From contig JAUNOY010000009.1 of assembly GCA_030536995.1 (NCBI GenBank), forward strand, positions 21,174 through 85,173: DNA of 64,000 nucleotides, read 5' to 3'. This document shows positions 1,396-17,698 of the stretch, piece by piece. Position 1 is the first letter of the stretch. The number at the start of each line of letters is the position of its first letter. Source of the DNA: Eubacteriales bacterium. Lineage in GTDB: Bacteria; Bacillota; Clostridia; Lachnospirales; Lachnospiraceae. A program made the translations under genes and the position numbers. The notes under the pieces were generated by a model that saw only the letters and a list, made by a program, of their open reading frames with translations, was not told where the DNA came from and ran no database searches.

Positions 1396-3012
1396 TCAAT
1401 CCATCTCTCTTACAATCTTACGAACAGGCAGTACAAAGGTCGGAGAAACAGAAAGCTCATCCAGTCCCATTTCCACGAAACGCTCTGTGAGAGTTGTATC
1501 TGCTCCAAGCTCACCGCAGATACCTGCCCAGATTCCCTCTTTATGGGCATTATCCACTACCATCTTAATCATACGCAGGACTGCCTCATGATGAGAATCA
1601 TAGATGTTGTCAAGTTTCGCATTCTGACGGTCAATAGCAAGTGTGTACTGAGTCAGATCGTTGGTTCCGATACTGAAAAAATCAACCTCTTTTGCAAGAA
1701 GGTCACTGATCATAACAGCAGCCGGAGTCTCAATCATAACTCCCTGCTCTACATCATCCTTAAACGGAATGCCCTGCTCTGTCAGTTCCTTTTTCACTTC
1801 TGCAACAATTTCTTTAATCTGCAGAACCTCTTTTACAGAAATAATCATCGGATACATAATGGAAATATTTCCAAACATCGCCGCACGGAACAGAGCTCGC
1901 AACTGTGTCTTGAATACTTCCGGTCTGTCAAGACAGATACGAATTGCGCGATATCCCATTGCAGGATTCTCCTCATGCGCCATATTGAAGTAATCAATCT
2001 GCTTGTCAGCGCCGATGTCCAGAGTACGAATGATAACCTTCTTACCGGCCATATTCTGAGCAACTGTCTTATAAATCTGGAACTGCTCTTCCTCTGTAGG
2101 ATAGTTATCTTTCTCCAGATAAATAAATTCACTTCTGAAAAGACCGATACCTTCGGCATCATTTGCAAGAACACTTGCCACATCAGCTGTGCTTCCGATG
2201 TTTGCATAAAGGTGAAGCTTACGTCCGCTCTTTGTTTCTGTTTGTTTTCCCTTTAATTCCCTGAGCATGGTTCTCTGACGAAGCTCCTCATCCTTCAGTT
2301 CCTGATACTTCTTTAAAGTTTTTTCATCCGGTTCAAGGATAAGAGTTCCGTTTTTGCCATCCACAATTGCCATCATACCATTTACACTGTCATCATACTC
2401 AATGTTGATCAGAGCCGGAATATTCATAGTTCTGGCAAGGATTGCCGTATGAGAGTTAGAAGAACCTTTTCTTGTAACAAATGCCAGCACCTTGGATTTG
2501 TCCATCTGGACTGTTTCACTTGGCGCAAGGTCTTCTGCCACAATAATTGACGGCTCAGAAGCTTCCATATCCCCGTCTCCATGTCCGGAAAGAACTCTTA
2601 CAAGACGGTCGGAAATGTCTTTTACGTCTGCTGCTCTTGCTCTCATATAATCATCGTCCATGCTTGCAAACATAGATGCGAAGTTGTCACCTGTTGTAGC
2701 GACTGCATACTCTGCATTTACGCCCTCTGTGCGGATAATATTGCTGATAGAATCCAGATAATCCCCATCCTCCATCATCATCTGATGAACTTCAAAGATG
2801 GCTGCGCCTGACTCTCCTACTTCCTGAACTGCTTTATCGTAAAGCTTCTGAAGCTGTGCAAGCGCAGTTGCTTTCGCCTCGTCTACACGTTTTACTTCCG
2901 CTTCCACGTCCTCTATATGAAAACGCTTCACGCTTGTGTCTGCTTTCTGAAAAATAGAAATTTTTCCGATTGCAATTCCGGAAAATACGGATTTACCTTC
3001 AAATACTTTCAT
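1396..3012 (-). CDS. ptsI: PTS enzyme I (phosphoenolpyruvate-protein phosphotransferase)
   Basis: Cytosolic enzyme I takes phosphate from PEP and passes it to HPr, feeding all PTS sugar transporters. The translation has the N-terminal HPr-binding and swivel domains, the phospho-His motif (SSNSHTAILAR, about residue 190), then the PEP-binding TIM barrel with the MYPMI segment and the catalytic-Cys loop GICGELGAD near residue 500. About 538 residues, slightly short for EI (about 570) but complete. Two ATGs are adjacent; the second (3012) has the better distance to AGGAG. It follows ptsH by 27 nt and is surely co-transcribed with it. Confidence 0.95.
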   Translation of the reverse strand: MKVFEGKSVFSGIAIGKISIFQKADTSVKRFHIEDVEAEVKRVDEAKATALAQLQKLYDKAVQEVGESGAAIFEVHQMMMEDGDYLDSISNIIRTEGVNAEYAVATTGDNFASMFASMDDDYMRARAADVKDISDRLVRVLSGHGDGDMEASEPSIIVAEDLAPSETVQMDKSKVLAFVTRKGSSNSHTAILARTMNIPALINIEYDDSVNGMMAIVDGKNGTLILEPDEKTLKKYQELKDEELRQRTMLRELKGKQTETKSGRKLHLYANIGSTADVASVLANDAEGIGLFRSEFIYLEKDNYPTEEEQFQIYKTVAQNMAGKKVIIRTLDIGADKQIDYFNMAHEENPAMGYRAIRICLDRPEVFKTQLRALFRAAMFGNISIMYPMIISVKEVLQIKEIVAEVKKELTEQGIPFKDDVEQGVMIETPAAVMISDLLAKEVDFFSIGTNDLTQYTLAIDRQNAKLDNIYDSHHEAVLRMIKMVVDNAHKEGIWAGICGELGADTTLTERFVEMGLDELSVSPTFVLPVRKIVREMD

Positions 3013-3039
3013 CATCTATCTCCTAACTTAAGGACGAAA

Positions 3040-3297
3040 TTAAAGATTTGCTTCAAAGAAAGCTTTCATTACTTCTGCATCTGCTGCTTCTGTATCGCCT
3101 TCAACTGTTACTGTGATTTCATCGTTCTGCTTTACAGCAAGTCCCATGATTCCGAAGATTTTTTTCGCATCGCCTTTTTTCTCACCTTTGCAGATAGTGA
3201 TTGTACTTCCAAGCTTACCTGCCTCTTTAACAAGAAGTCCCGCCGGTCTTGCATGAATTCCCAGTTCATCTTTAATTACATAATTGAATGATACCAT
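3040..3297 (-). CDS. ptsH: HPr-family phosphocarrier protein
   Basis: 85 residues. The active-site His15 lies in GIHARPAG, as in all HPr proteins, so it can accept phosphate from enzyme I encoded just downstream. The regulatory serine normally phosphorylated by HPr kinase (position 46, KSIMG in Bacillus) is replaced by Lys46 (AKKIFGIMG). If the alignment is right, this HPr cannot form P-Ser-HPr and should not act as the CcpA co-repressor. A strong AGGAGG lies 7 nt before the ATG. It could be a Crh-like or secondary HPr, but pairing with ptsI and an intact His15 argue for the general PTS role. Confidence 0.93.
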   Translation of the reverse strand: MVSFNYVIKDELGIHARPAGLLVKEAGKLGSTITICKGEKKGDAKKIFGIMGLAVKQNDEITVTVEGDTEAADAEVMKAFFEANL

Positions 3298-3403: not shown

Positions 3404-4405
3404 TTATTTGGCATTTTCACGGAAAAAGTGTAGTTTATTCAGGTAAAAAATATAGCCTGTGCCTGTAAACAATGCCGTTTTTCCCAGAGAAAGAATCCCT
3501 TCTGCTTCTGCGGGCGTTTGGGGAAGCATAAAATAAAGCCTTATATTTTCGCTCATCTCCCAAATTTTCCTCTGCCAGAAACCAAAATCTGACCACTTTC
3601 CCGGTATCCAGTCTCCTGGTATATCAAGCAGAGAAATCATCTTCCACAGAACCACCGTCAGAACAGCGACTCCCAACAATGTCCATGCAGTCCTGACCGC
3701 TCCCGTTTTTCCCTTTCTTTTTCCCAGTATTCTCACTGAAATATCAGCAGGCAGTAGAAACACCATAGAAATCATAACAATCCTGATAAAACCTGTGTTT
3801 TGTTTCTTACCGGACAACCCGTTTCTCATAAGAAATCCTTCTGTATCATCCCTGATAAAAACCCTGTCGTATGTCAGTTTTTTATCTTTTTGCGGCCGGA
3901 TATAGAGTACCTGCTGCGAAAAAGGAAGTACCTTTCTCACAGTATACTCTCTTCCCTGAAACTCAATTTTACCACCTGGCTGACAGCTTCCAAAAAGTAT
4001 ATCGGCAGTACGCCTGTCTATTACACAGCCTTCCCTGTCGTCCTCAGCAAACCCTCTGAGCCTCCAGTCAAATATCGTTTCATTTCCTGCAAGCCCCGCT
4101 GCAAAAACCTCCGTACTTCTGCTGTAATCCTTCTGGCTGATTTTTTCAAGCCCCATGTCTCTGTAAAAACAGACTTCTGCCGGATTACGGGTATTTTTTT
4201 CACTGTCCAGAATTTCCGATACGCGACTGTCATCCGGAACAGGTGAAAGCAAAAACACTGTATCCTTCTTCTCCTGCAGGACACTTCCGGCAGATATCAG
4301 CCCGCACAGGAACAATCCAAGAATTATTACTCCACAAAAGATTACCTTTATTCTGTCTGAAAAACCGATTTTGGGCGGGTATTTGCCCGCGCTGTTCCCT
4401 GTCAT
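3404..4405 (-). CDS. MacB/FtsX-like membrane protein (ABC permease-type, orphan)
   Basis: 333 residues. A first membrane segment (about 20-42) is followed by an external domain of roughly 160 residues. Its stretch GCVIDRRTADILFGSCQPGGKI and EYTVRKVLP resembles the MacB periplasmic core, where a VxxLFG.xxPxGKxI...YxVxGV pattern is typical. Membrane segments follow at about 207-225 and 240-260 and perhaps near the C-terminus. It overlaps the preceding adaptor gene by 4 nt (ATGA), so the two are translationally coupled. No ABC ATPase lies in the operon, so energy coupling, if any, comes from elsewhere. The assignment to the MacB/FtsX class is by pattern only; the protein is divergent. Confidence 0.6.
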   Translation of the reverse strand: MTGNSAGKYPPKIGFSDRIKVIFCGVIILGLFLCGLISAGSVLQEKKDTVFLLSPVPDDSRVSEILDSEKNTRNPAEVCFYRDMGLEKISQKDYSRSTEVFAAGLAGNETIFDWRLRGFAEDDREGCVIDRRTADILFGSCQPGGKIEFQGREYTVRKVLPFSQQVLYIRPQKDKKLTYDRVFIRDDTEGFLMRNGLSGKKQNTGFIRIVMISMVFLLPADISVRILGKRKGKTGAVRTAWTLLGVAVLTVVLWKMISLLDIPGDWIPGKWSDFGFWQRKIWEMSENIRLYFMLPQTPAEAEGILSLGKTALFTGTGYIFYLNKLHFFRENAK

Positions 4406-5745
4406 GGCTCCATCAGCCTTACACGGCTGCCGTCTGTGATTTCTCTGTCACTATAAGTAATAATCCTCTGATCTGCCGCAAGAATCCCCTCCTCAAGCGC
4501 AGCAATCGAAGTATTTTTATTTTTCACATCCACATGTACCTTACGCGCCACAAGCACTTCTCCAAGAACGGTTTCCTGTGTATCCGCTACATAAACGAAA
4601 TTTTTTCCATTTTCTTCCCCCAGCGCTCCCAGAGGTACGCAGGCACTATAAGGCCCTTCTTCCCGGGAAATTTCAAAATTCACATTTTCTCCGATTCTGA
4701 AATCAGCATCTGATACGGCAATGGATATTTTGCGAAGCTCCTGGTTCTCCTCTGTCTCTCCCACAGCCTCTATGATTCCTGTCTTTTCTATCCCGTCTGC
4801 ACCTGTAAGAGCCGCTTTTTCACCTGTCTGTACGTATTTAATCTCCTCTGCGCTCACAGTTGTTTCCACACGAAAAGTTCCTGTTGTTTCATAGAGCACC
4901 ATAGCTGCATCCTTCCCTGTCATACTTCCGGTTACTGCAGAAATACTCTTTACCACTCCGTCAACAGGCGCTTTCACCCGTCCTTTTCTTTTGAGGATTT
5001 TATTTAATTTTTCAAGCTCTTCCTGTGCCTGTGCCAGTTCTCTCTTCACATTTTCCACGGTACTGTCCCTGCTTTCTTCTACCCCGGCATCCTCAATTCC
5101 GCGTCTGGCTGCCAGTTTATCCTGATCTCTGCTCATAACTGCCTGATCAATAGCCTCCTGACACATCCTGATTTCGTCCAGCAACGCCTGCTCCTGTGTC
5201 TTATCCACTGGTTCATCTGTGAAATCGCTGGAAAGAGAGGCGTAATAATCCTCAAGCTTCTGTCTTGCTGCCTCTAGTGCCCTCTGCGCATTTGAAATGT
5301 TCACACCGCCGTTTCCCGCCGCTATGTTATAATCCTCCTGCGCCCTTCGAAGAGCTCTGTCCTTTGCCTCCTTTTTCATCTGAGCCTGACTCTCCAAATC
5401 GCCGATTTGCAGGGTTAATTCCTGTATCTCATCTTCTTTTTCCCGAATGATTTCTTTCATCTGCTTCACGGAATATACAAGAAGTGTTTCTCCTTTTTTC
5501 ACGGTCTGTCCCTCACGTACCAGGACCTGCGCCACGAGCTGATTTTCCAGGGCAAAAACCGCACGTTCCTTCGTCCCCTCAACTCTTCCGCTTCCCCGTA
5601 CAATGTGGGAGACTGTCTGATTTTGAATTTTTCCTGTCTCAACCTGCGCTACACTGATGGATGACGCAGCTCTTGATACTACAGTAAAAATAAGCATCGC
5701 TGCAAAAAACATTCCGCACCATTTCAAAATTTTCTTTCTGTCCAT
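4402..5745 (-). CDS. HlyD/RND-type membrane fusion (adaptor) protein
   Basis: 447 residues with an N-terminal membrane anchor (about 10-28), a biotinyl-lipoyl-like first half (VAQVLVREGQTVKKGETLLVY, near 75-95), a long coiled coil (about 100-260, rich in E, Q, K and R), then the second lipoyl half (KGRVKAPVDGVVKSISAVTG) and a beta-barrel region. Such proteins bridge an inner-membrane transporter to the cell exterior in Gram-positives. It lies between sugar-type permeases (2-nt gap) and the MacB-like permease (4-nt overlap), an unusual pairing that suggests one multi-part membrane machine. Confidence 0.85.
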   Translation of the reverse strand: MDRKKILKWCGMFFAAMLIFTVVSRAASSISVAQVETGKIQNQTVSHIVRGSGRVEGTKERAVFALENQLVAQVLVREGQTVKKGETLLVYSVKQMKEIIREKEDEIQELTLQIGDLESQAQMKKEAKDRALRRAQEDYNIAAGNGGVNISNAQRALEAARQKLEDYYASLSSDFTDEPVDKTQEQALLDEIRMCQEAIDQAVMSRDQDKLAARRGIEDAGVEESRDSTVENVKRELAQAQEELEKLNKILKRKGRVKAPVDGVVKSISAVTGSMTGKDAAMVLYETTGTFRVETTVSAEEIKYVQTGEKAALTGADGIEKTGIIEAVGETEENQELRKISIAVSDADFRIGENVNFEISREEGPYSACVPLGALGEENGKNFVYVADTQETVLGEVLVARKVHVDVKNKNTSIAALEEGILAADQRIITYSDREITDGSRVRLMEP

Positions 5746-5747
5746 TT

Positions 5748-6590
5748 TTACTCCTTAATCGCTGTTGAAATAATCCCCTGCTCCAGATAATCCTGTCCTG
5801 CAAGAAAAACAAGCACTGCAGGAATCAGTACGATAACCGAAACTGCAAAAGCTTTTCCTGCCTGTGACGCATCAATTTCCGGAAGATACAGGGACAAACA
5901 CCATAATTCTTTGTTTTTCAGAAATGCCATCGGCTGTTCAATCAAATTCCAGTATTCCAGAAATCCCAGAACAAGCGCTGAAATAATTCCGGGCGACCCC
6001 AGCGGAATGCCAAGCTTCCAGAAACAAAGCCACTCTCCTGCTCCGTCAATCCGTGCAGCCTCAAGAAGAGCCGCAGGAATTCCTTCAAAAAAACGATACA
6101 TAATAAACACCGGAAATGTAGAAAAAATTCCCGGAAGAATAATTCCCGCAAGCGTGTCCAAAAGCCCCAGTCCGTCAAGTACCAGATAATTACTGAGCAT
6201 CAATACCTGAAATGGCATCATCATCAAGGCAATATAAATCAAAAACAGGACATTTTTTCCGGGAAATTTATATTTTGCAAATCCCCATGCTGCAGGTACG
6301 CCAATCAGAATCTGTCCCACAAGAACTCCGGCTGTAATTTTCACAGAGTTCCAGAACATCACGAAAAATTCCGGCGAATCCAGCAATACCTCTATGTACG
6401 CCCGAAGCGTAGGATACAACGGCAGAAATTTCCACGATATATAGCCTCCCTCTCCTGTGAGAAAAGGTTCCAGTACCTGTTTTAATTCCTGACTTCCCAT
6501 AATTGATCCTGCCACTGTAAACAGAATGGGAAAAACAGCCAGAAAAACAAGCGCTGCCAGAATCCCATTCAGTAAATATTTGATTTTCAT
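5748..6590 (-). CDS. Carbohydrate ABC transporter permease, MalG type
   Basis: 280 residues, six predicted membrane segments, N-terminal TM at about 10-30. The ATPase-docking EAA loop reads LLEAARIDGAGEWLCFWKLGIPL, near residue 175, the CUT1 (MalG) form. It forms a heterodimer with the MalF-type partner encoded 4 nt upstream. No MsmK/UgpC-type ATPase is encoded nearby; a shared housekeeping ATPase is common for CUT1 systems in Firmicutes. Substrate cannot be told from sequence. Confidence 0.9.
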   Translation of the reverse strand: MKIKYLLNGILAALVFLAVFPILFTVAGSIMGSQELKQVLEPFLTGEGGYISWKFLPLYPTLRAYIEVLLDSPEFFVMFWNSVKITAGVLVGQILIGVPAAWGFAKYKFPGKNVLFLIYIALMMMPFQVLMLSNYLVLDGLGLLDTLAGIILPGIFSTFPVFIMYRFFEGIPAALLEAARIDGAGEWLCFWKLGIPLGSPGIISALVLGFLEYWNLIEQPMAFLKNKELWCLSLYLPEIDASQAGKAFAVSVIVLIPAVLVFLAGQDYLEQGIISTAIKE

Positions 6591-6594
6591 GCTT

Positions 6595-7443
6595 TTACTG
6601 CTCCTTTCCCCAGGTTTTCCATAAAAGAATAATCAATCCCAGAATAACAGCTCCGGTCACCACAGCAGCCGCAGACATTTTGTCAAGAGAAAGTTCCCTG
6701 TACCAGTTATTAAATAAGTGCTGCAAAAGATACATACTCTCCTGCGGATAATCCCCTGCCACCAGATACGCCTCCCGAAATACCTTGAAGGCATTGAGAA
6801 GAGACAGTACCGTAATTGTAAAAAAAGAAGGCATAAGATTGGGCAGTGTAATAGAAAGAAAGCATTTCCACTCTCCGGCTCCATCCACCTTTGCAGCCTC
6901 ATAAAGAGCCTGCGGAATCGCTGCCAGTCCAGCCATCCAGAGTATCATATCGTATCCCAGATTCCTCCAGAGATAACTGGCAACAAGAACATAAAAAGAA
7001 GCGTCTGTATTCATCCAGTCCAATGCAGGAAGAGATAAAGCTGCCAGAACCCCGTTAAGAATCCCTCTCTTATGAAACAGAAGCTTCCATAAAAGCACCA
7101 CCGATGCTACCGGAATCGCCATGGGAAGGAGAAACGTACTTTTCAAAAGCTGCTGCATTTTTTTCTGCCTTGTAAGAATCACGGCAATCAAAAGAGACAG
7201 ACATACCAGAAGAGGAATACAGACAAGAAAGAACCGCAGCGTATTCATGGCGGCAAGGCGAAACGCGCGGTTTTCAAACACTGCCACATAATTTTGGATT
7301 CCTGTAAATTCCCCGCTCACTGCCCCGAAAAAAGACCGCCTCACAACATCCATACTCGGAATCAGCCAGAAAAGACTGACTCCGGCAAGACTTGGAAGTA
7401 CAAACAACAGCCCTTTCCATGAGCCTTTCTTATATTTTTTCAT
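6595..7443 (-). CDS. Carbohydrate ABC transporter permease, MalF type
   Basis: 282 residues with a first membrane helix at about 12-32 and the EAA loop YEAAKVDGAGEWKCFLSITLPNL near 185. It is first in the leftward operon, directly below the divergent control region, and partners the MalG-type permease 4 nt downstream. The solute-binding lipoprotein that should feed it is transcribed in the opposite direction from the same control region (7699), so binding protein and channel are co-regulated but separately transcribed. Confidence 0.9.
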   Translation of the reverse strand: MKKYKKGSWKGLLFVLPSLAGVSLFWLIPSMDVVRRSFFGAVSGEFTGIQNYVAVFENRAFRLAAMNTLRFFLVCIPLLVCLSLLIAVILTRQKKMQQLLKSTFLLPMAIPVASVVLLWKLLFHKRGILNGVLAALSLPALDWMNTDASFYVLVASYLWRNLGYDMILWMAGLAAIPQALYEAAKVDGAGEWKCFLSITLPNLMPSFFTITVLSLLNAFKVFREAYLVAGDYPQESMYLLQHLFNNWYRELSLDKMSAAAVVTGAVILGLIILLWKTWGKEQ

Positions 7444-7514: not shown

Positions 7515-7548
7515 AAGATAGCACAGTCATCTCTAAGGAATCTCTAAA
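7515..7548 (-). promoter_or_regulatory. Promoter with tandem TCS operator, leftward transport operon
   Basis: On the reverse strand: TTTAGAG (7542-7548), 4 nt, CTTAGAG (7531-7537), 10 nt, -10 TATCTT (7515-7520). The two heptamers are 11 bp apart, one helical turn, the usual spacing of OmpR-family half-sites, and they cover the -35 region. The same layout is seen at 7595, 10829 and 10873. Confidence 0.7.
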
Positions 7549-7594
7549 CTCCTTCCCGTCTTTTTCCGAAAAGCTTAAGAAATTCTTTTGTTTC

Positions 7595-7628
7595 TTTAGA
7601 GGAAGTTTAGAGAAAACACTGTTATCCT
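7595..7628 (+). promoter_or_regulatory. Promoter with tandem TCS operator, solute-binding protein gene
   Basis: TTTAGAG (7595-7601), 4 nt, TTTAGAG (7606-7612), 10 nt, -10 TATCCT (7623-7628). It mirrors the leftward site at 7515-7548, so the divergent transport genes should respond together. There is no good -35 hexamer, as expected for an activator-dependent promoter. Confidence 0.7.
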
Positions 7629-7698
7629 AAAAGCATCCTAGCTGTTGAACCTCTTCACAGTTACAGGTAAAATAAAAATAAGAACAGGAGGATGCAAT

Positions 7699-10062
7699 AT
7701 GCATAAAAATAAACAAATTACAAAGGGAGTCGCTTTCGCAGCAGCCGTTGCCCTTGCAGGAATGAGTCTTTCCGCATGTCAGAGCGGCGCGGCGGACAAA
7801 GGTTCCGATAACGGCATCTCCAAATCATCAGAAAATACAGAAGCCCCGGCTTCTGAGGAAAAAGCAATGGGACGCTATCTGGAGGAGACTATTTCCGTAC
7901 CTGAAGATGCGGGCAGTATCAGGAAATTTAAAATTCTTGATTCCGGTGTATACAGAATTCTTTATGAAAACAAGGATTTCACCCTCTGTATGGCAGAATC
8001 TCAGGATCAGGGCAAAACATGGAGTGAGGGCAAACCTGCTGCAGAGCTTCTCGGTCTTGAGAAATCCAGTTACTACTTCCCGGCTTCGGCGCTTGCCTCT
8101 GACGGCGGTATTTTCTTTACAGGTTACCCTTCTTCCGAAAATCAGGAGGAAGCGCTGCCCAGCCGTTATTTCTACCTTTCTCCGGAAGGAGAAATCCGGG
8201 AACTGGATTTAAGCGATTCCTTAAAAGACGACTATATTTTTATCGGTGATTTTACTGCCAAAAATACGATTCTGCTCCAGCCGATTTCCAACGGCATTAT
8301 GGAATTTGACACAGACGGCACCCTTTTAAATCACTACGAAAAAGGCGGTCATTCCGAATGCTTCGGCACTTCCGGAAAATATCTGACTGTCACTATTGAC
8401 GGCACAGTTCACTATTATAATCTGGAAACAGGTAAGCCGGTAGACAATATGGATGCCCTCACCACTCAGATGAGCTCCAATCCCGGCAATCTGGAACTGA
8501 CAAACACCTCCACCGTTCCCTTTGCTTTCACAGACGGAGACGATGAAAAGAGCCTTTTCTATGTAGATTCCACAGGGCTGTACCGTTATGCAGAAGGGGG
8601 AAATACTGTGGAGCAGCTCATTGACGGAAGCCTGAATTCCATCAGTTCTCCTGCTACCGGCTTTACAGGTCTGGAACATGACAAAGACGGAAACTTCTAT
8701 CTTACAGGCGTGGATTACAGTTCTGAGTCAGCATCCCGGGGATTCATTTACAAATACACCTATGACCCCAATACTTCTGCTGTGCCGGGCACAGAATTAA
8801 AAATCTATACTCTGAATGAGAGCAGTCTCCTGAAGCAGGCAGCAACGGTCTTCCAGAAAAAATATCCGGATATCTATCTCAATATCCAGACAGGAATGAG
8901 CGGAGACGATTCCTTTACCTCCTCCGACGCTGTCAAGGTTCTGAATACAGAAATCATGGCAGGCAAGGGACCTGACCTCCTTCTTCTGGACGGACTTCCG
9001 GAGGATACCTATATTGAAAAGGGGCTTCTGGAAGACATCAGCGGACTTTTCTCAGAGGCAGAGCTTCTTGATAATATAAAGGACGCCTACACCGGCGAAG
9101 ATGGAAAAATCTATGCAATGCCTGTGAAATTCGCTATCCCTCTGCTTCAGGGCAAAAAAGAGGACATTGCCTCTGTCACAGACCTGACTTCTCTGGCTGA
9201 CCTGGCAGAAGCACACAAAGACGAGTATGAAGCTTTCCGCCTCTTCTCATACAGTACCATGTCACCGGGCTTACTTTTGAAATGTCTTACAGATGTAAAT
9301 ATGCCGGCATGGCTCAAAGAGGACGGCACTCTGGATGGCGATGCTGTCGCCTCTTTCCTCGAAGACAGCAACCGGATTTATCAGACCAGCGCAGACATTG
9401 TAAAAGAATTAATTGCCGAATACGGAGAAGATTCCTTCTCTGCCCTGTCCTCAGAATACAGCAGACACAATATGGGCATCGGAGGTTCTGCACTGAGCGT
9501 TCTCGGAGGTAATTCACAGGCTGAATTCGGAGGTCTGTTTTCTCCTTCTGAGCTCAGCTATGTGGATTCTGTAAATAAAGCAGATTCTTCTCTTGGCGTG
9601 AAACTCTGGGATGGTCAGAGCAAAAATACCTTCTATCCTGAGCAGATTATAGGAATCAGCGCCAAGTCTGCAAATAAAGAAGCTGCGCAGAAATTCCTCT
9701 CCTTCCTCTTCAGTGAAGAAGGTCAGAAAATCGGCGCAGAAGTCGGTCTTCCTGTAAACAGAACCATTTATGAGGATGTAACTTACTGGACACAGGGGAC
9801 TCCGGGTAAAGTTATCAGCGTTGCCGGCACCGGAAACAATCAGACAGAAGAATATACAAAACTGGAAATTTGCCTTCCTTCTGAAGAAACAGTAAAGGAA
9901 ATCATCGCTTTGGGCAAAACCCTCACCGTACCTTCCAAGGACAACGCCATCATTCAGAATGCAGTCCTTGACGCAGGAACACGCTACATTAACGGAGAAT
10001 TATCTCTGGAAGAAGCTGTCAACGCAGTTACACAGGAAGTAAATTTATATTTATCTGAATAA
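7699..10062 (+). CDS. Propeller-like/solute-binding fusion lipoprotein (ABC substrate-binding)
   Basis: 787 residues from the ATG at 7699, which has AGGAGG 7 nt upstream; an in-frame ATG at 7645 has no ribosome site. A lipoprotein signal ends at LSAC (Cys27). Residues about 65-380 look beta-rich, with a BNR/Asp-box repeat (SQDQGKTW, near 101-108) and repeated DGxxYY/FYLTG-type strands, like a beta-propeller. From about 385 a family-1 type solute-binding domain follows (ELKIYTLNE, FQKKYPDIYLNIQTG, GKGPDLLLLDGLP, FLSFLFSEEGQKIGAEVGLPVNR). Ordinary CUT1 binding proteins are about 430 residues, so the N-terminal half is an addition, perhaps an extra ligand or polymer sensor. It most likely serves the permeases divergently encoded at 5748-7443. 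Confidence 0.85.
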   Translation: MHKNKQITKGVAFAAAVALAGMSLSACQSGAADKGSDNGISKSSENTEAPASEEKAMGRYLEETISVPEDAGSIRKFKILDSGVYRILYENKDFTLCMAESQDQGKTWSEGKPAAELLGLEKSSYYFPASALASDGGIFFTGYPSSENQEEALPSRYFYLSPEGEIRELDLSDSLKDDYIFIGDFTAKNTILLQPISNGIMEFDTDGTLLNHYEKGGHSECFGTSGKYLTVTIDGTVHYYNLETGKPVDNMDALTTQMSSNPGNLELTNTSTVPFAFTDGDDEKSLFYVDSTGLYRYAEGGNTVEQLIDGSLNSISSPATGFTGLEHDKDGNFYLTGVDYSSESASRGFIYKYTYDPNTSAVPGTELKIYTLNESSLLKQAATVFQKKYPDIYLNIQTGMSGDDSFTSSDAVKVLNTEIMAGKGPDLLLLDGLPEDTYIEKGLLEDISGLFSEAELLDNIKDAYTGEDGKIYAMPVKFAIPLLQGKKEDIASVTDLTSLADLAEAHKDEYEAFRLFSYSTMSPGLLLKCLTDVNMPAWLKEDGTLDGDAVASFLEDSNRIYQTSADIVKELIAEYGEDSFSALSSEYSRHNMGIGGSALSVLGGNSQAEFGGLFSPSELSYVDSVNKADSSLGVKLWDGQSKNTFYPEQIIGISAKSANKEAAQKFLSFLFSEEGQKIGAEVGLPVNRTIYEDVTYWTQGTPGKVISVAGTGNNQTEEYTKLEICLPSEETVKEIIALGKTLTVPSKDNAIIQNAVLDAGTRYINGELSLEEAVNAVTQEVNLYLSE

Positions 10063-10071
10063 GCAAATGAG

Positions 10072-10112
10072 GGGCGTGTGAAAAAACTTTCGTTTTTCAC
10101 ACGCCCTTTTTA
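10072..10112. terminator. Bidirectional terminator
   Basis: GGGCGTGTGAAAAA, loop ACTTTCG, TTTTTCACACGCCC then T5. It lies between the converging binding-protein and response-regulator genes and has A and T runs on both sides. Confidence 0.9.
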
Positions 10113-10116
10113 TTTC

Positions 10117-10794
10117 TCATTTATACACTTCCATCACATAACCTACGCCTCTCACAGTTCTGAGGTCTAACGTGCTCTCCACAGTTTTCAGTCTCCGCCT
10201 GAGAAAATGAATGTAATTATCAAGATTTCCTTCTTCCACATCGCTTTCCAGTCCCCATACGCGGTTCAGGAGTACGTTTCTCGGCAGAGTCTGCCCCGGA
10301 TTTCGCAAAAACACCTCCAGAAGCTCTCCCTCCCGTTTCGACAGCGTACACTCTTTTCCATTTCCTTTCAGCCGGTTGTCTTCCGGATCGAAGCTTATAT
10401 CTCCAAGATTCAGAAGAGACGTTTCCTTCCAGTTTCCCGGACGCCTGAAAATGCAGCGGATGCGGGCAAGAAGCTCAGAAAAAGCAAATGGCTTCACCAT
10501 ATAATCATCTGCGCCGCAGTTTAATCCCGTAAGCCTGTCATTAAGTTCCCCCAGAGCAGTAAGCATAATCACCGGCGTGGAAACATGCGCTTTTCGCGCA
10601 GCCTTCAATACAGAAACGCCGTCCATAGAAGGAAGCATCCTGTCAAGAATTACCAGATCGTGAGCTTTTTCCTGCATGTAATAAAGACCTTCCTCCCCGT
10701 CTGTACAGACGTCCGTCTCAAATCCTTCTTTTTCAAGCTGAAACCTCACAGATTCCGCCAGATCTCTATCGTCTTCAATCATCAGTATTTTCAA
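10117..10794 (-). CDS. OmpR-family response regulator
   Basis: 225 residues from a TTG at 10794. Upstream in-frame ATGs exist (10833, 10818), but the predicted -10 box covers 10829-10834, so a transcript would begin near 10822; the TTG has AAAGGCGG 6 nt before it. The receiver domain has the acidic pair ED/D (residues 7-9), phospho-acceptor Asp51 (LVILDRMLP), Thr (MLTALG) and Lys (VKPFAF). The C-terminal winged helix ends RTVRGVGYVMEVYK, typical of OmpR/PhoB. It is divergent from the histidine kinase at 10951, and both promoters carry the same direct-repeat site found at the transport genes, so it is probably the activator of that locus and of itself. Confidence 0.95.
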   Translation of the reverse strand: MKILMIEDDRDLAESVRFQLEKEGFETDVCTDGEEGLYYMQEKAHDLVILDRMLPSMDGVSVLKAARKAHVSTPVIMLTALGELNDRLTGLNCGADDYMVKPFAFSELLARIRCIFRRPGNWKETSLLNLGDISFDPEDNRLKGNGKECTLSKREGELLEVFLRNPGQTLPRNVLLNRVWGLESDVEEGNLDNYIHFLRRRLKTVESTLDLRTVRGVGYVMEVYK

Positions 10795-10828
10795 TATAAA
10801 ACCGCCTTTCTCTCGCATTATATTTTTT

Positions 10829-10862
10829 ATCATATCACAAAATTCTCTATTTTTTCTGTAAA
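10829..10862 (-). promoter_or_regulatory. Response-regulator promoter with tandem operator
   Basis: Reverse strand: TTTACAG (10856-10862), 4 nt, AATAGAG (10845-10851), 10 nt, -10 TATGAT (10829-10834). The spacing is identical to the three sister sites, although the heptamers are more degenerate, which would suit weaker autoregulation. Confidence 0.6.
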
Positions 10863-10872
10863 AAATTCTGAA

Positions 10873-10906
10873 TTTAGATTTAATTTAAAGATTTCCATGT
10901 TATACT
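10873..10906 (+). promoter_or_regulatory. Histidine-kinase promoter with tandem operator
   Basis: TTTAGAT (10873-10879), 4 nt, TTTAAAG (10884-10890), 10 nt, -10 TATACT (10901-10906), followed by the kinase ATG at 10951. Same architecture as at 7515, 7595 and 10829. Confidence 0.65.
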
Positions 10907-12297: not shown

Positions 12298-13554
12298 TTA
12301 TTCACTTCTAAGCGCATCAATCGGATTTAAGTTCGCTGCTTTCACAGACGGGAGCAGTCCGAAGACAACACCGATCACTGTAGAAAACAGAACTGCAACA
12401 AGAATCGCCGGTACACTGATTGCCGTAGGCGAGCCCGAGAATTTGCCCACCACCTTCGACAATCCAATACCCAGAACAACTCCTACAATTCCGCCAATAC
12501 TGGTAAGTACAGCCGCCTCTGTAAGGAACTGTCCGAGAATTGTTTTCTTTCTGGCTCCGATTGCCTTCTTCAAACCAATTTCCCTTGTTCTTTCTGTAAC
12601 AGAAACAAGCATGATATTCATAACACCAATGCCACCGACAAGAAGGGAAATACTTGCAATCCATATAAGCTGATTGTTTGTCCTCTTGCTCAGATTCTGA
12701 AGATCTCTTACCTGCTGCATAATATCATCTGCCTGATACTTCAGTTCTGTAGCGTTATGCTTATTGTTTATTGCCTCATTGAGAACCTCTGCCGCTGCAT
12801 TTCCAACTGTACTCATAGCATCTGTACTGTCTGCTTTAATGATTGCATTTTCTGCTTCATCAAACTGGAAAGGAATCGGCCAGCATGCATTGGGAATCAT
12901 CACACAGCCAATCACATTCTGGGAGTATGTCCAATACTCGTCAATTGATTCGATATTCGGCTGGTAATCTGCATCCTGACGGACAATTCCAACCACTGTA
13001 AAAGGCTCCTGACTGATTTCAATCGTCTTTCCAAGAGGATTTTCTCCGGGGAAAAGGTTTTCTGCCGCATTACTATCCACAAGGGCAACTTTTCGATAAG
13101 ACTTATAATCCGCATCTACAAATCCACGACCTGACTGAACAGAATAGCCGCAGGTACTCAGATAATTGATGTCTATGCCATATACGCTTCCTCCCTGAAG
13201 ACTGTTGTTATTGTAGTACACACTGTTTGTACCTGTTCTGCTGTTAAAAAATGTAGCGTTCTTTACATGTTCAAGTTCACGCACTTTTTGTTTCAGCTCT
13301 TCTGTAAGAACAGGCGTCACCGCATTGCTTCCGTATTCCGGATTGTACTGCATATCTCCTTCTTTCAGATATACATTTACCGTATTCGTTCCGGCTCCGA
13401 TCAGATCTTCTTTAATCTGTTCACTTGTTCCCTTAATGGTGGAAACAATTGCAATAATGGATGCAATACCAATAATAATACCAAGCATCGTCAGGAAAGA
13501 TCTCATCATATGGGACCAGATTCCCTGAAAAGCAAGACGTATATTCTCTAACAT
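12298..13554 (-). CDS. MacB-type ABC transporter permease
   Basis: 418 residues. TM1 at about 20-42 (SFLTMLGIIIGIASIIAIVS), then a MacB periplasmic core domain (about 45-270) with YFLTT-like elements such as NLFPGENPLGKTIEI and PFTVVGIV, and a C-terminal FtsX block of three membrane segments from about 285 to 405 with ERTREIGLKKAIGARKKTI, the ATPase-coupling loop. It is last in a four-gene leftward operon with its ATPase (15555) and two adaptors. Together they form a MacAB-like exporter, probably for a peptide, antimicrobial or lipid. Confidence 0.93.
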   Translation of the reverse strand: MLENIRLAFQGIWSHMMRSFLTMLGIIIGIASIIAIVSTIKGTSEQIKEDLIGAGTNTVNVYLKEGDMQYNPEYGSNAVTPVLTEELKQKVRELEHVKNATFFNSRTGTNSVYYNNNSLQGGSVYGIDINYLSTCGYSVQSGRGFVDADYKSYRKVALVDSNAAENLFPGENPLGKTIEISQEPFTVVGIVRQDADYQPNIESIDEYWTYSQNVIGCVMIPNACWPIPFQFDEAENAIIKADSTDAMSTVGNAAAEVLNEAINNKHNATELKYQADDIMQQVRDLQNLSKRTNNQLIWIASISLLVGGIGVMNIMLVSVTERTREIGLKKAIGARKKTILGQFLTEAAVLTSIGGIVGVVLGIGLSKVVGKFSGSPTAISVPAILVAVLFSTVIGVVFGLLPSVKAANLNPIDALRSE

Positions 13555-13568
13555 GAAATCTCTCCTTT

Positions 13569-15548
13569 CTAACCGTTGTAACCGTACATCTTATCCAGTG
13601 TTACTTCCTTCGTCTTCGCGCCTTCTACCACTGTTTTTCCATAAGGGAATGCAATCAGGTCATCTGTGGTGATTCCGTCTTTTACAAGCACACTGTATCC
13701 ATTGTCCACATTTCCGCCTACTGTAAGGTACTGCTTTTTCAGAACTCCCTTGTCGTCTTTGTAGACATAGCTCTTGCCATTCTCTGTGCGGACAAAAGCC
13801 TTCTGGAGAACAAGGCTGCCTTTTACAGACTGGGAGCTTTCCAGATTAATTGTGATAAAGTCATAATCACGGAACTTTATCGACTTATCAAGAACCTCCG
13901 CAGTAAGGCTGTAATAGGATGCATTCGGATTACTCATTCCCGCATATACGCTTCCGGAAATAGGATACTCGGAAATCTCCATGACTTTTGCTTCAAATTC
14001 TCCCTTATCATAGCTAATACAGTTCAGCACTGTCCCTTCTCCAATCTGATCCAGAAAAAGCTCGCTGACAGCGCCGACTACATAATAACCGTCTCCGCTT
14101 TTTACTTTGATAAAAGCAGAACCATCTGTCTTTTTCGTTACAGTATCGCCTACATAAGTAACGATTCCATCCAGCTTGCTGCTGATTAGCTTACGGTTTA
14201 CTTTTTTCTCCAATTTACCGATTTTGATGTTGCTTTCCTGAATATCAAGCTTCAAATTCGCAATCTTTCTCTGCTGATACTTGATGGCTTCTTCTCTGCT
14301 TACTGTTGTGCTTCCCGCTCCACCTCCCGGAGTTCCCGGTTCATCCGGCACCTGAGGTTCATAGGTCATCGCATCGGAAAGAGTAAATTCCGACTCCACA
14401 TATTCATACACAGGCTGAGTCAGAAAACTGCCGTTTATAAGGTAATATCCTGTGCAGGAAAGAGTTCTGTCCTGATAATCTCCAATTGTATCATTTTGAT
14501 GGAATTCAAGTCGGAACCAATATCCTCCCTCTTTTTCCACCTTTGTTCCATCTGCACTGTATCCTGCCATCTTATTTAAGAAAGATCCCATAGCCGTTAC
14601 ACTGCCCCTTGCGCTACTCACAAGAAATACCAGGGGATCTTTTTCCGTTCCTGTTCCCGTAAATGGTACGGAATTGGCATCCAGCTTATCATAGAACTTT
14701 TCTCTTCCGTCTGTTACCCCTTCCATCTCATCTGTAAAATAAGGGTCATAATAAGATGTATTTTCGTCCAGCTCGGGAGTCGGCGTAGGCGATGGTTTCG
14801 GCGTATCATTTTGTCCAGAAGTAATATCATCTCCGCTATTTCCATCAGAAATTTCTTCTCCTGATGTGAAATCTCCGGCTGACGGATCCTGATATTCCGG
14901 CTCCGTTAATGCTTCATCAACTGCTGCCTGCCCCGGATTTTCTGTCCCTGCACCATTGACATCGGGCTCTTCTTCCAGTTCTCCATCCGCAAACGCACTT
15001 AACAGAAGTCGCGGAACTGCTGCTGCCAGATAAGTATCCCCATTATTCCGCTCGGTAAGAGATGCCATTTCATTATCATCTGTATCATCCGGAACATCCA
15101 TATTATCCAGATTATCTGCGCTTCCGCCTCCGTCTTCTTCCAGAATCGGACCTCCGTTCTTAAGGCTGTTCAATCTGTTTACCGCTCTGTTTAAATCCTG
15201 TTCCAGTTTCTTATGCTTCAATCTTGCAATATTCAGCTCCATTTCCACCAGAGTCGTATCAAAGGAAATCAAAGGATCCCCTTTTTTTACAGTATCTCCC
15301 TCTGCTACATAGACCTGATCAATAATCATATCGCTGTCAACAGAGACATTCTGCGCAACGCTCGTCGTAACATTGCCGTCAATACTTGTCGTAGGCATAA
15401 AGTAATCAGAAACAAGATTGCTTACACTTGTAACCATAACCTCTTTTTGGTTATTTTTCCGAAGCTGAAGAAGACCCGCCGCTGCACCTGTTCCTGCCAG
15501 TGCGACAACTAATGCTCCTATAATTACACGTTTCACTATTTTATGCAT
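13569..15548 (-). CDS. HlyD-family adaptor with large inserted domain
   Basis: 659 residues, longer than usual adaptors (about 350-450). N-terminal TM at about 9-27; first lipoyl half VAEGDTVKKGDPLISFD near 80-95. A low-complexity acidic insertion (about 135-260, rich in D, E, G, N, P) and a globular insert (about 260-400) lie inside the hairpin, before the returning coiled coil (KYQQRKIANLKLDIQESNIK) and the second lipoyl half (SSKLDGIVTYVGDTV). Barrel and membrane-proximal domains follow. A 14-nt gap separates it from the permease. The insert may carry a substrate-binding or wall-spanning function. Confidence 0.85.
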   Translation of the reverse strand: MHKIVKRVIIGALVVALAGTGAAAGLLQLRKNNQKEVMVTSVSNLVSDYFMPTTSIDGNVTTSVAQNVSVDSDMIIDQVYVAEGDTVKKGDPLISFDTTLVEMELNIARLKHKKLEQDLNRAVNRLNSLKNGGPILEEDGGGSADNLDNMDVPDDTDDNEMASLTERNNGDTYLAAAVPRLLLSAFADGELEEEPDVNGAGTENPGQAAVDEALTEPEYQDPSAGDFTSGEEISDGNSGDDITSGQNDTPKPSPTPTPELDENTSYYDPYFTDEMEGVTDGREKFYDKLDANSVPFTGTGTEKDPLVFLVSSARGSVTAMGSFLNKMAGYSADGTKVEKEGGYWFRLEFHQNDTIGDYQDRTLSCTGYYLINGSFLTQPVYEYVESEFTLSDAMTYEPQVPDEPGTPGGGAGSTTVSREEAIKYQQRKIANLKLDIQESNIKIGKLEKKVNRKLISSKLDGIVTYVGDTVTKKTDGSAFIKVKSGDGYYVVGAVSELFLDQIGEGTVLNCISYDKGEFEAKVMEISEYPISGSVYAGMSNPNASYYSLTAEVLDKSIKFRDYDFITINLESSQSVKGSLVLQKAFVRTENGKSYVYKDDKGVLKKQYLTVGGNVDNGYSVLVKDGITTDDLIAFPYGKTVVEGAKTKEVTLDKMYGYNG

Positions 15549-15554
15549 TCTGTG

Positions 15555-16226
15555 TCACCCCTTTTCTCGCAGTTCGCCGTCACGGATGGTAACCACTCTT
15601 TTCGCATGAGCCGCAATGTCCGGGTCATGAGTAATCATAAGCACTGAAACTCCTTCATCGTTCAATTTCTGAAACAGCTCCATAACCTGAGCTCCTGATT
15701 TACTGTCCAAAGCTCCTGTAGGTTCATCCGCAAGAAGAAGTCTCGGACTGTTCACAATTGCTCTTGCAATAGCCACTCTCTGCATCTGTCCTCCTGAAAG
15801 CTGATTCGGACGGAAGTCTACTCTATCTGCCAGCCCTACTCTTTCCAGGGCACGTAACGCCCGTTCTTTTCGTTCTTTTTTCGGAACTTTTGCATAATTA
15901 AGCGGCATTTCCACATTTGACAAAGCGCTCTGTTTCGGCAGAAGATGAAAGCTCTGGAATACGAAGCCGATCTTGTGAAGTCTGATATCTGACATGGCAT
16001 TTTCCGAACATTTCCCGATATCCTCACCATCCAGGAAAAAAGTTCCTTCTGTCGCCTTATCAAGGCAGCCTATGATATTCATAAGCGTTGTCTTTCCGGA
16101 ACCGGAAGGCCCCATAATCGCTACATACTCCCCTTCTTCCATGGAAAAATTTACATCTTTCAATACCGGAACTTTCATCTTTCCCTGCTGGTACTCTTTA
16201 TAAATTCCTTTTAATTCCAGTATCAT
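15555..16226 (-). CDS. MacB/LolD-type ABC transporter ATP-binding protein
   Basis: 223 residues with all ABC motifs: Walker [11 protein letters not shown] (about 39-48), Q loop [10 protein letters not shown], signature [14 protein letters not shown], Walker [13 protein letters not shown] and H loop MITHD. This is the LolD/MacB subfamily that powers FtsX-type permeases such as the one at 12298. Its start overlaps the stop of the upstream adaptor gene by 4 nt (ATGA), which indicates coupled translation. Confidence 0.96.
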
Positions 16227-17698
16227 CCTTCAGCGCCTCCTATGATCTCAGTCTCTGCAGATTCACTCTCCGTACCAGGCGCTCCATCCATCGGAATCAG
16301 CTCTTCTCCGTCAGTAAAACCGTCAGAAATCTCGCCGGAATCCATATCTGACATTCCGTCTTCACCAACCATTTCGCCTCCTGACATATCTGCTTCTTCC
16401 ATATCGTTTGTCACCATTTCCTCATCAAGAGGAGCTTCCATATCCAGACCCTCATCAGGATTTACATCTGCGCCCATCATCTGTGTGATATCTCCAACCT
16501 CTGTCGCGTTTCCTTCCTCAAGAACATCTGTCGGGAATGCAATACAATCTTTCTTCGTCAGACCGTCTACAATCTCATATTCGCCAAGCTCATCGTCGTG
16601 CTTGCCAAGAATAACCGGACGTTTTTCCAGCCTGTTCTTCTCGTCGGCTGCCCATACAAAAGGATTCTCCGTATCTGCTCCTACAATATAGTAGTCACTA
16701 AGCCACAAACCTTCCTTCACATCTGCCTGTCCCAGATCTCTTTCAATATATACGTGCTGCCCAAGCATCAGTCCTTCTGAAGATTCCAGCTCCACATAAA
16801 ACGGATATGAAGTAGATGTGGTTTGTTCGTCGGTGGTACTCATCCCGAAATACATATCATTTTCATCTTCTGAGCTGCCATTCTGCATATCCACCTCTCC
16901 CATGGTTCCCTTCCAGGTAAGATTCTGATCCACTCTGGAGCGAATGATCACAGGCTCTCCGGGTGTCACTTCATTCATCTCATTTACTTTTCCCTTAATC
17001 CTGTACGCACCAGTGCTCAGAATCTTGATAAAAGCATTGCTCTGTTCTTCATCGCTTCCGTAATTAATCCCCTCGTCAATAACCTCTCCATCTTCACTGG
17101 TCATCTTGGACGTGTCAATCTTCTGGATAACACCATCCAGCGTACTGCGTACCTCAGTATTTACAGTCGCGCTCTGGAGCCGCTCAATTTCCGCAGCTTT
17201 ACTCTTCTGGTCATATTCATTTTTCTTAAGACTCATTTTATTGGTTTCAATCTCAATGGTGTAAGAAAGCTGTTCACTTTGCTTTGCCTTCTTTTTTTCT
17301 TTAATGAGCGTATTAATCTGCTCCTGAAGGCTGATCGCCTCATTCTTCAGACGGTCAAAGTCAAGCTGTGCCTGCTGAAGATCTTCCTGAATACTGCTTA
17401 AATCATATTCAAAAAGCAGCTGACCTTTCTTTACCTCTTCGCCCTCTTTCACCCGTACTTCTTTCACCTTACGACCGCTCTCAATCTCAACATCTACTGT
17501 TTCCTGCGGTTCCACTACACCTGCATAACGGTTCATAACTCCGGAAGTCACACCTGTCAGCTCCTCTATGGAGGATACAAATACGACCGTATCATTCCCC
17601 GGCTGCTGGCTGTTGCCCCGGAAATAATACCATGAGCCGGCGCCGATGACCCCCGCTGCTATCAGAATTCCCAGAACGATTAAAATTCGTTTTTTCAT
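16223..17698 (-). CDS. HlyD/MacA-family adaptor with acidic C-terminal tail
   Basis: 491 residues. TM at about 5-27 (ILIVLGILIAAGVIGAGSWYYF), a lipoyl half (EVRVKEGEEVKKGQLLFEYD), coiled coil (about 100-180), the returning lipoyl half (TLDGVIQKID) and a barrel domain up to about 395. The last 90 or so residues are almost all D, E, G, M and S, a highly negative tail not seen in typical MacA. First gene of the efflux operon. Having two different adaptors in one operon suggests a hetero-oligomeric conduit, or two alternative ones. Confidence 0.87.
   Translation of the reverse strand: MKKRILIVLGILIAAGVIGAGSWYYFRGNSQQPGNDTVVFVSSIEELTGVTSGVMNRYAGVVEPQETVDVEIESGRKVKEVRVKEGEEVKKGQLLFEYDLSSIQEDLQQAQLDFDRLKNEAISLQEQINTLIKEKKKAKQSEQLSYTIEIETNKMSLKKNEYDQKSKAAEIERLQSATVNTEVRSTLDGVIQKIDTSKMTSEDGEVIDEGINYGSDEEQSNAFIKILSTGAYRIKGKVNEMNEVTPGEPVIIRSRVDQNLTWKGTMGEVDMQNGSSEDENDMYFGMSTTDEQTTSTSYPFYVELESSEGLMLGQHVYIERDLGQADVKEGLWLSDYYIVGADTENPFVWAADEKNRLEKRPVILGKHDDELGEYEIVDGLTKKDCIAFPTDVLEEGNATEVGDITQMMGADVNPDEGLDMEAPLDEEMVTNDMEEADMSGGEMVGEDGMSDMDSGEISDGFTDGEELIPMDGAPGTESESAETEIIGGAEG

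Follow-up and report, generated by a model that had tools for sequence, protein, structure and literature searches.

In the arrangement typical of PhoB-type activation, two 11-bp direct repeats replace the −35 element and are followed by a fixed step to the −10 box; the Pho box takes the −35 position in this way, with a half-site sequence that differs from TTTAGAG, the heptamer considered here. Among transporters, Firmicute CUT1-type importers usually rely on an ATPase encoded at an unlinked locus. In the available parts of the two sources, the Pho box of enterobacteria is described as two 11-bp direct repeats (PMC3978041), and the operator read by CiaR, which controls the small CiaRH regulon of many separate promoters in streptococci, as TTTAAG-N5-TTTAAG with 10 nt between the second half-site and the −10 box (PMC3091779). 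Here we describe an operator-promoter element in a 64,000-nt stretch of a Lachnospiraceae genome, taken to be that of a gut Blautia (Eubacteriales bacterium, GCA_030536995.1, contig JAUNOY010000009.1, positions 21,174 to 85,173; hereafter, the window), where a locus of seven transport and two-component system (TCS) genes in four transcription units carries four such sites, all within two divergent intergenic regions. Judging from sequence comparison, the OmpR/PhoB-family response regulator (RR) encoded next to these four sites very probably uses them as its operators; it would activate transcription from them and thereby positively regulate its own gene.

An original prediction, made from the letters of the window, had described a heptamer close to TTTAGAG, a 4-nt gap, a second heptamer, exactly 10 nt and a −10 box at four promoters, and had assigned them to an OmpR-family regulator. 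All four sites were found where they had been placed and on the predicted strands, with the 7-4-7-10-6 spacing present in each, and each faces a different transcription unit, namely the permease operon and the genes for the solute-binding protein (SBP), the RR and the sensor histidine kinase (HK). The end of the first site lies 71 nt upstream of the start codon of the MalF-like permease gene. Across 101 distinct sites from 39 loci, the window part included, the consensus reads TTTAGAGAWWN TTTAGAGAWWN NNN TGnTATnaT, so that the predicted heptamer holds as a core, while the true unit is longer, an 11-bp TTTAGAGAWWN direct repeat. The consensus also contains an extended −10, with T and G, one base before the −10 box, in 95% and 90% of the sites, respectively, although these positions lay outside the search pattern. 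The spacing itself is strict: a gap of 4 nt separates the half-sites in 82 pairs, against at most nine pairs at every other gap from 0 to 15, and TAnnnT follows at 10 nt in 73 of 81 pairs, against at most eight at other distances. Upstream of the first repeat, positions carry at most 0.26 bits each, which argues against both a third unit and a separate −35 element; we accordingly rejected a third half-site.

Judged by mismatch count alone, the two sites at the transporter genes are the only conspicuous ones in the organism's own genome (92.5% complete) and the two TCS sites are weak, since the pattern has seven matches with up to three mismatches, four of them at this locus, versus 15 for a reversed control pattern. 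Conservation decides in favour of all four: a scoring matrix trained on 93 sites found in relatives, with the window excluded, places them at ranks 1 to 4 in the window, with the next position at 10.2 bits, a gap of 17 bits. In a simulated control of 60 order-2 Markov windows, the mean maximum was 6.5 bits and the highest value 15.3 bits. Two further matches in the own genome, on contigs C9 (with TTTTCT as −10) and C15 (with TATATA as −10), are not claimed as sites.

Loss of the motif upstream of orthologous loci had been named in advance as grounds for abandoning the prediction. Instead, 37 related loci (L067–L099 and L102–L105; 600 kb, window not included) yielded 95 pattern matches with up to three mismatches, versus 0–6 for each of 25 permuted heptamers. 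Gene by gene, across 39 Blautia loci, a site with up to four mismatches within 500 bp upstream precedes the MalF permease gene in 28 of 30 cases, the SBP gene in 31 of 32, the RR gene in 23 of 30 and the HK gene in 23 of 29; genes less than 120 nt from an upstream contig end were left out of this test, as were matches that did not exceed 250 bits (200 for the RR). In both permease exceptions (L080 and L082), the SBP gene immediately precedes the permease gene in the same orientation. None of 121 inside-gene control segments contained a site, and together with the permuted heptamers and the Markov windows this rules out a chance origin.

The sites are kept before their orthologues even where gene order is reshuffled. 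The permease operon lies ~90 kb from the SBP gene in one Blautia genome (G308) and on another contig in a second (G310), each time with an exact repeat. Among 23 complete Blautia layouts, 17 read MalF− RR+ SBP− HK+, with two more the same except for a doubled SBP gene, and the layout of the window, MalF− SBP+ RR− HK+, is unique. Relative to those 17 layouts (19 with the doubled SBP), the SBP and RR block (7699–10794) is inverted, with breakpoints in both divergent promoter regions; a repeat search found no long inverted repeats at its two flanks. Phase variation by inversion was rejected on these grounds, and because the layout is unique and lacks such repeats, we treat the gene order of the window as a presumably fixed rearrangement.

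The divergent site pairs of the window are 46 and 10 bp apart. In related loci, 22 of 67 head-to-head site pairs are separated by 12–14 bp, as are 13 of 27 outside the Blautia set by 13–14 bp, a hint of a compact bidirectional promoter. Helical phasing of such pairs (32 distances of at least 16; best period 11.0, R 0.43, p 0.009 against jitter) is not claimed, because p is 0.09 on unique distances.

Additionally, the site and the regulator are directly observed to occur together. Among 64 Blautia genomes, in sets compiled by hand from search tables, 32 have a match to the regulator (E 1e-60) and 31 encode the SBP (E 1e-10); regulator and site occur together in 30 genomes, 30 have neither, and the discordant genomes number two of each kind, so that a site is found in 30 of the 32 regulator-bearing genomes versus 2 of the 32 others. 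The DNA-reading helix region is highly conserved among the aligned regulators (28 rows). Two genomes, G307 and G314, have only a distant regulator with 44% identity; this protein, whose helix GNVDSYISFLRKRL is a related one, still has a site 34 nt upstream of the start of its own gene.

The protein itself bears out the assignment to the OmpR family, which the original prediction had drawn from the 11-bp period: both RR domains lie above their gathering cut-offs (Response_reg, 2e-27; Trans_reg_C, 2.4e-18). Its best NCBIfam match is PhoB (TIGR02154), at 194 bits well under the curated cut-off of 296.2, which sets it apart from PhoB proper. The likeness to CiaR lies in the 11-bp direct-repeat period, in similar half-site letters, in the 10-nt step from the second half-site to the −10 box and in the spread over many separate promoters (PMC3091779, available part). 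However, the half-site here is TTTAGAG with N4 rather than TTTAAG with N5, the helix region reads NLDNYIHFLRRRL versus VVEVYVSKVRKKL in CiaR (same source), and the −10 is extended by TG; the targets seen here are lipoproteins and a transporter together with its TCS, and not small RNAs as in the part of that source available. The PhoB-type arrangement, the agreement with CiaR in period and −10 distance, and the conserved helix region together underlie our reading of the sites as activator operators.

What we infer concerns the identity of the protein that binds the sites, activation over repression, phosphorylation and ligand. Head-to-tail on the 11-bp repeats, two RR molecules would occupy a single face of the helix at the usual place of the −35 element, and the bound RR would recruit RNA polymerase to the extended −10 in the manner of PhoB and CiaR. 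On sensing an extracytoplasmic signal, the HK would cause the permease operon, SBP, RR and HK to rise together, and the whole locus would act as a positively autoregulated uptake and sensing module.

The same RR could instead bind and repress, with the signal relieving repression, and the overlap of the repeat with the expected −35 contact of the polymerase would suit this; we consider it improbable, given how little information lies outside the repeat and the −10 box and how strict the 10-nt step to the extended −10 is. These two features are the look of activator-dependent promoters of the OmpR/PhoB family. Moreover, the CiaR sites with the same spacing belong to CiaR-activated promoters (PMC3091779, available part).

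Several observations weigh against operators read by the adjacent RR. The Fisher p values for co-occurrence, 4e-22 and 3e-13, treat related genomes as independent. Two genomes (G301 and G333) have the regulator and no site within two mismatches of the 20-base pattern, and in two loci (L098 and L099), whose regulators have a very similar helix, no site was found. No site within four mismatches precedes 7 of 30 RR genes or 6 of 29 HK genes, although for two of these six HK genes there is one whose −10 is of AATAAT type; conservation is weaker for autoregulation than for control of the transporter. Conversely, G327 and G299 have a two-mismatch site and no regulator match, and the G327 site precedes a D-Ala-D-Ala carboxypeptidase gene. 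Among orthologues of this gene, a site with up to three mismatches is found in 9 of 21 regulator-bearing genomes, 3 of 7 regulator-less genomes and 0 of 2 genomes with the distant regulator (30 of 51 matches were taken; row G339 was misplaced, its flank being cut, and G329 slightly so). The own genome has a carboxypeptidase gene (Peptidase_S11) on contig C17 (L101, 2845–3846, minus strand) with a three-mismatch site and an extended −10 at its start. As its sites also occur in regulator-less genomes, we do not claim the carboxypeptidase gene as a distal target, and sites of a related kind may be recognised by a different regulator.

The latter point leads to the view that another OmpR-family regulator, for instance of WalR/PhoP type, binds all the sites and that the adjacent pair is a passenger. 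It could draw on the carboxypeptidase motif with two to three mismatches in regulator-less Blautia (G263, G312 and G341) and on two other regulators of genome G328 with partly similar helices (YIGFLRRKL and YISYLRKKL). Yet the strong sites track the adjacent regulator and its locus among genomes, and 15 other regulators, taken from eight Blautia genomes without the adjacent regulator and from the own genome (rows L273 and L286 were misread), have VRTVDVHIRRLREKI as their commonest helix and a best upstream match of at least seven mismatches in each case, making this view quite unlikely. Least credible, to the point of being nearly dismissed, is a repeat read directly by a sigma factor as a promoter element and not an operator: its fixed distance from the −10 box would fit, but a tandem duplication with an 11-bp period that turns up at few positions in a genome, and rarely in genomes without the locus, looks like an operator.

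Next, we followed the operator beyond Blautia. A protein search for close relatives returned none in the genome-contig collection, and one of plasmid records gave a single distant match (27%, Subdoligranulum variabile). Of 299 Lachnospiraceae genomes searched for sites that deviate from the 19 fixed bases in no more than one position, 30 contain one, versus one genome for a reversed control pattern; the SBP is encoded in 28 of these 30 and in 54 overall, leaving 26 genomes with the SBP and no such site. A scan for the exact pattern in one genome per species (84,980 species) gave at least 117 stretches, which are not a random sample. Among the matches listed, most are from Lachnospiraceae or other Clostridia, including Neglectibacter and Ruminococcus flavefaciens, and one record each from Nostocales and Campylobacteraceae resembles a chance match. 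A strong homologue of the SBP (over 100 bits) or of the RR, HK, MalF or MalG (over 200 bits) is present in 92 of the 117 stretches. The first gene after 127 exact sites among the matches listed, taken as the longest open reading frame starting within 450 nt, encodes the SBP in 43 cases, a lipoprotein family in 40, the regulator in 21, a permease in eight, the kinase in one and another protein in three; for the remaining 11, no frame of at least 100 aa starts within 600 nt.

These lipoproteins are acidic, mostly 165–245 aa long and share a conserved C-terminal part (L124, L135, L198, L207 and others), and in some stretches they follow exact sites at a distance from the transporter genes. None of four members that were scanned matched Pfam at E 0.1, and the own genome yielded no clear member (best E 9e-4, an alignment confined to the first 94 positions); strong members found in Blautia include ones beside the distant regulator. 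One stretch, L225 (4963–10925 and 11530–16045), combines a distant regulator and kinase pair bearing the same site with a lipoprotein of this family, an ATPase and a pair of permeases of FtsX/MacB type, adjoins a second ABC/TCS module, and looks to us like a conjugative (Tn916-like) element; the 34 bp of the site hardly differ among G307, G314, G159, G148 and G104. The closed, autoregulated circuit that had been predicted fits at most the own genome, as far as it was scanned, and does not extend to the family, where lipoprotein genes follow 40 of 127 sites among the matches listed, permease operons can be unlinked and a branch appears to lie on an integrative element.

Table 1 Genes and operator-promoter elements of the transport and two-component locus in the window.
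Feature	Position	Strand	Details
333-aa protein, probably membrane-bound, last permease-operon gene	3404..4405	-	Weak MacB_PCD, below gathering cut-off
HlyD/RND-adaptor-like membrane fusion protein, permease operon	4402..5745	-	HlyD_3; RND_mfp below cut-off
MalG/UgpE-like ABC permease	5748..6590	-	BPD_transp_1; UgpE-like model below cut-off
MalF/UgpA-like ABC permease	6595..7443	-	BPD_transp_1; GlcT/UgpA-like model below cut-off
Operator-promoter 1 (permease operon)	7515..7548	-	TTTAGAG-ATTC-CTTAGAG-N10-TATCTT; 1 mismatch; TGC before −10; 34.2 bits, rank 2
Operator-promoter 2 (SBP)	7595..7628	+	TTTAGAG-GAAG-TTTAGAG-N10-TATCCT; 0 mismatches; TGT before −10; 39.4 bits, rank 1
Lipoprotein-type SBP, 787 aa	7699..10062	+	
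OmpR/PhoB-family RR, 225 aa, probable TTG start	10117..10794	-	Helix region GNLDNYIHFLRRRL
Operator-promoter 3 (RR)	10829..10862	-	TTTACAG-AAAA-AATAGAG-N10-TATGAT; 3 mismatches; TGA before −10; 27.6 bits, rank 4
Operator-promoter 4 (HK)	10873..10906	+	TTTAGAT-TTAA-TTTAAAG-N10-TATACT; 2 mismatches; TGT before −10; 29.5 bits, rank 3
Sensor HK, 422 aa	10951..12219	+	HisKA + HATPase_c

The genes of the locus (Table 1) resemble a CUT1 importer in having a MalF/MalG-type pair of BPD_transp_1 permeases and a single SBP with a CUT1-type sugar-binding fold. The permease operon has no ATPase gene, and the own genome has one MalK-type match elsewhere, which, by sequence, could energise the putative importer. 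It differs from a CUT1 importer in the HlyD-like and MacB-core-like proteins added to the operon, in the OmpR-type TCS inside the locus and in the SBP, whose structural model has an N-terminal all-beta, propeller-like domain (~59–360) fused to the sugar-binding domain (~362–787). The latter is nearest to CbpC of Clostridium thermocellum; the former contains the stretch SQDQGKTW, which we take to be Asp-box-like, and its profile match to designed propellers (Scone-E, E 7e-9, no single stretch passing alone) is a hint only. In the AlphaFold2 model of the HK (mean pLDDT 86.3), two long helices, read as putative membrane helices, flank one alpha/beta domain. A sequence profile search matched the kinase core alone, and the sensor domain, from its modelled secondary structure, would be PAS/Cache-like.

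Between the convergent SBP and RR genes, a perfect 14-bp inverted repeat with A/T tails (10072–10106) is probably a bidirectional terminator. Genes for PTS enzyme I and HPr, named from sequence (1396–3297, minus strand), directly adjoin the permease operon, and their homologues each occur in 3 of the 37 relatives' stretches. Convergent with the HK gene is a MacAB-type operon (12298–17698, minus strand; likewise named) of a permease, a 659-aa HlyD-like protein, an ABC ATPase and a 491-aa HlyD-like protein; it is retained near 25 of the 37 related loci, the 491-aa gene in 22, and its ATPase is 87.8–92.8% identical in the 12 rows listed. No site with up to four mismatches lies upstream of this operon in the window.

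The architecture of the system is already known, whereas the operator sequence and its specificity, the regulon and its spread appear to be new; we found no mention of a TTTAGAG/CTCTAAA operator motif in the open-access literature, subscription journals being mostly outside the search. Tentatively, and with more doubt than confidence, we suggest an undescribed regulon for envelope or nutrient sensing through the Lachnospiraceae, in which one operator code and one regulator subfamily may couple propeller-fused SBPs, CUT1 permeases, HlyD/MacB-core-like partners, Pfam-less lipoproteins and, in the integrative branch, an FtsX/MacB-type exporter, with the SBP perhaps a co-sensor of the HK rather than, or not only, part of an importer. 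With a perfect site at 7595 and an architecture that is fixed, the operator lends itself to footprinting, and the four promoters can serve as reporters in ligand screens. To our knowledge, few such regulons have been worked out in gut Lachnospiraceae. The results flag an acidic lipoprotein family without annotation as part of the response, and provide a testable operator code and a likely target list for the TCS of many gut Lachnospiraceae.

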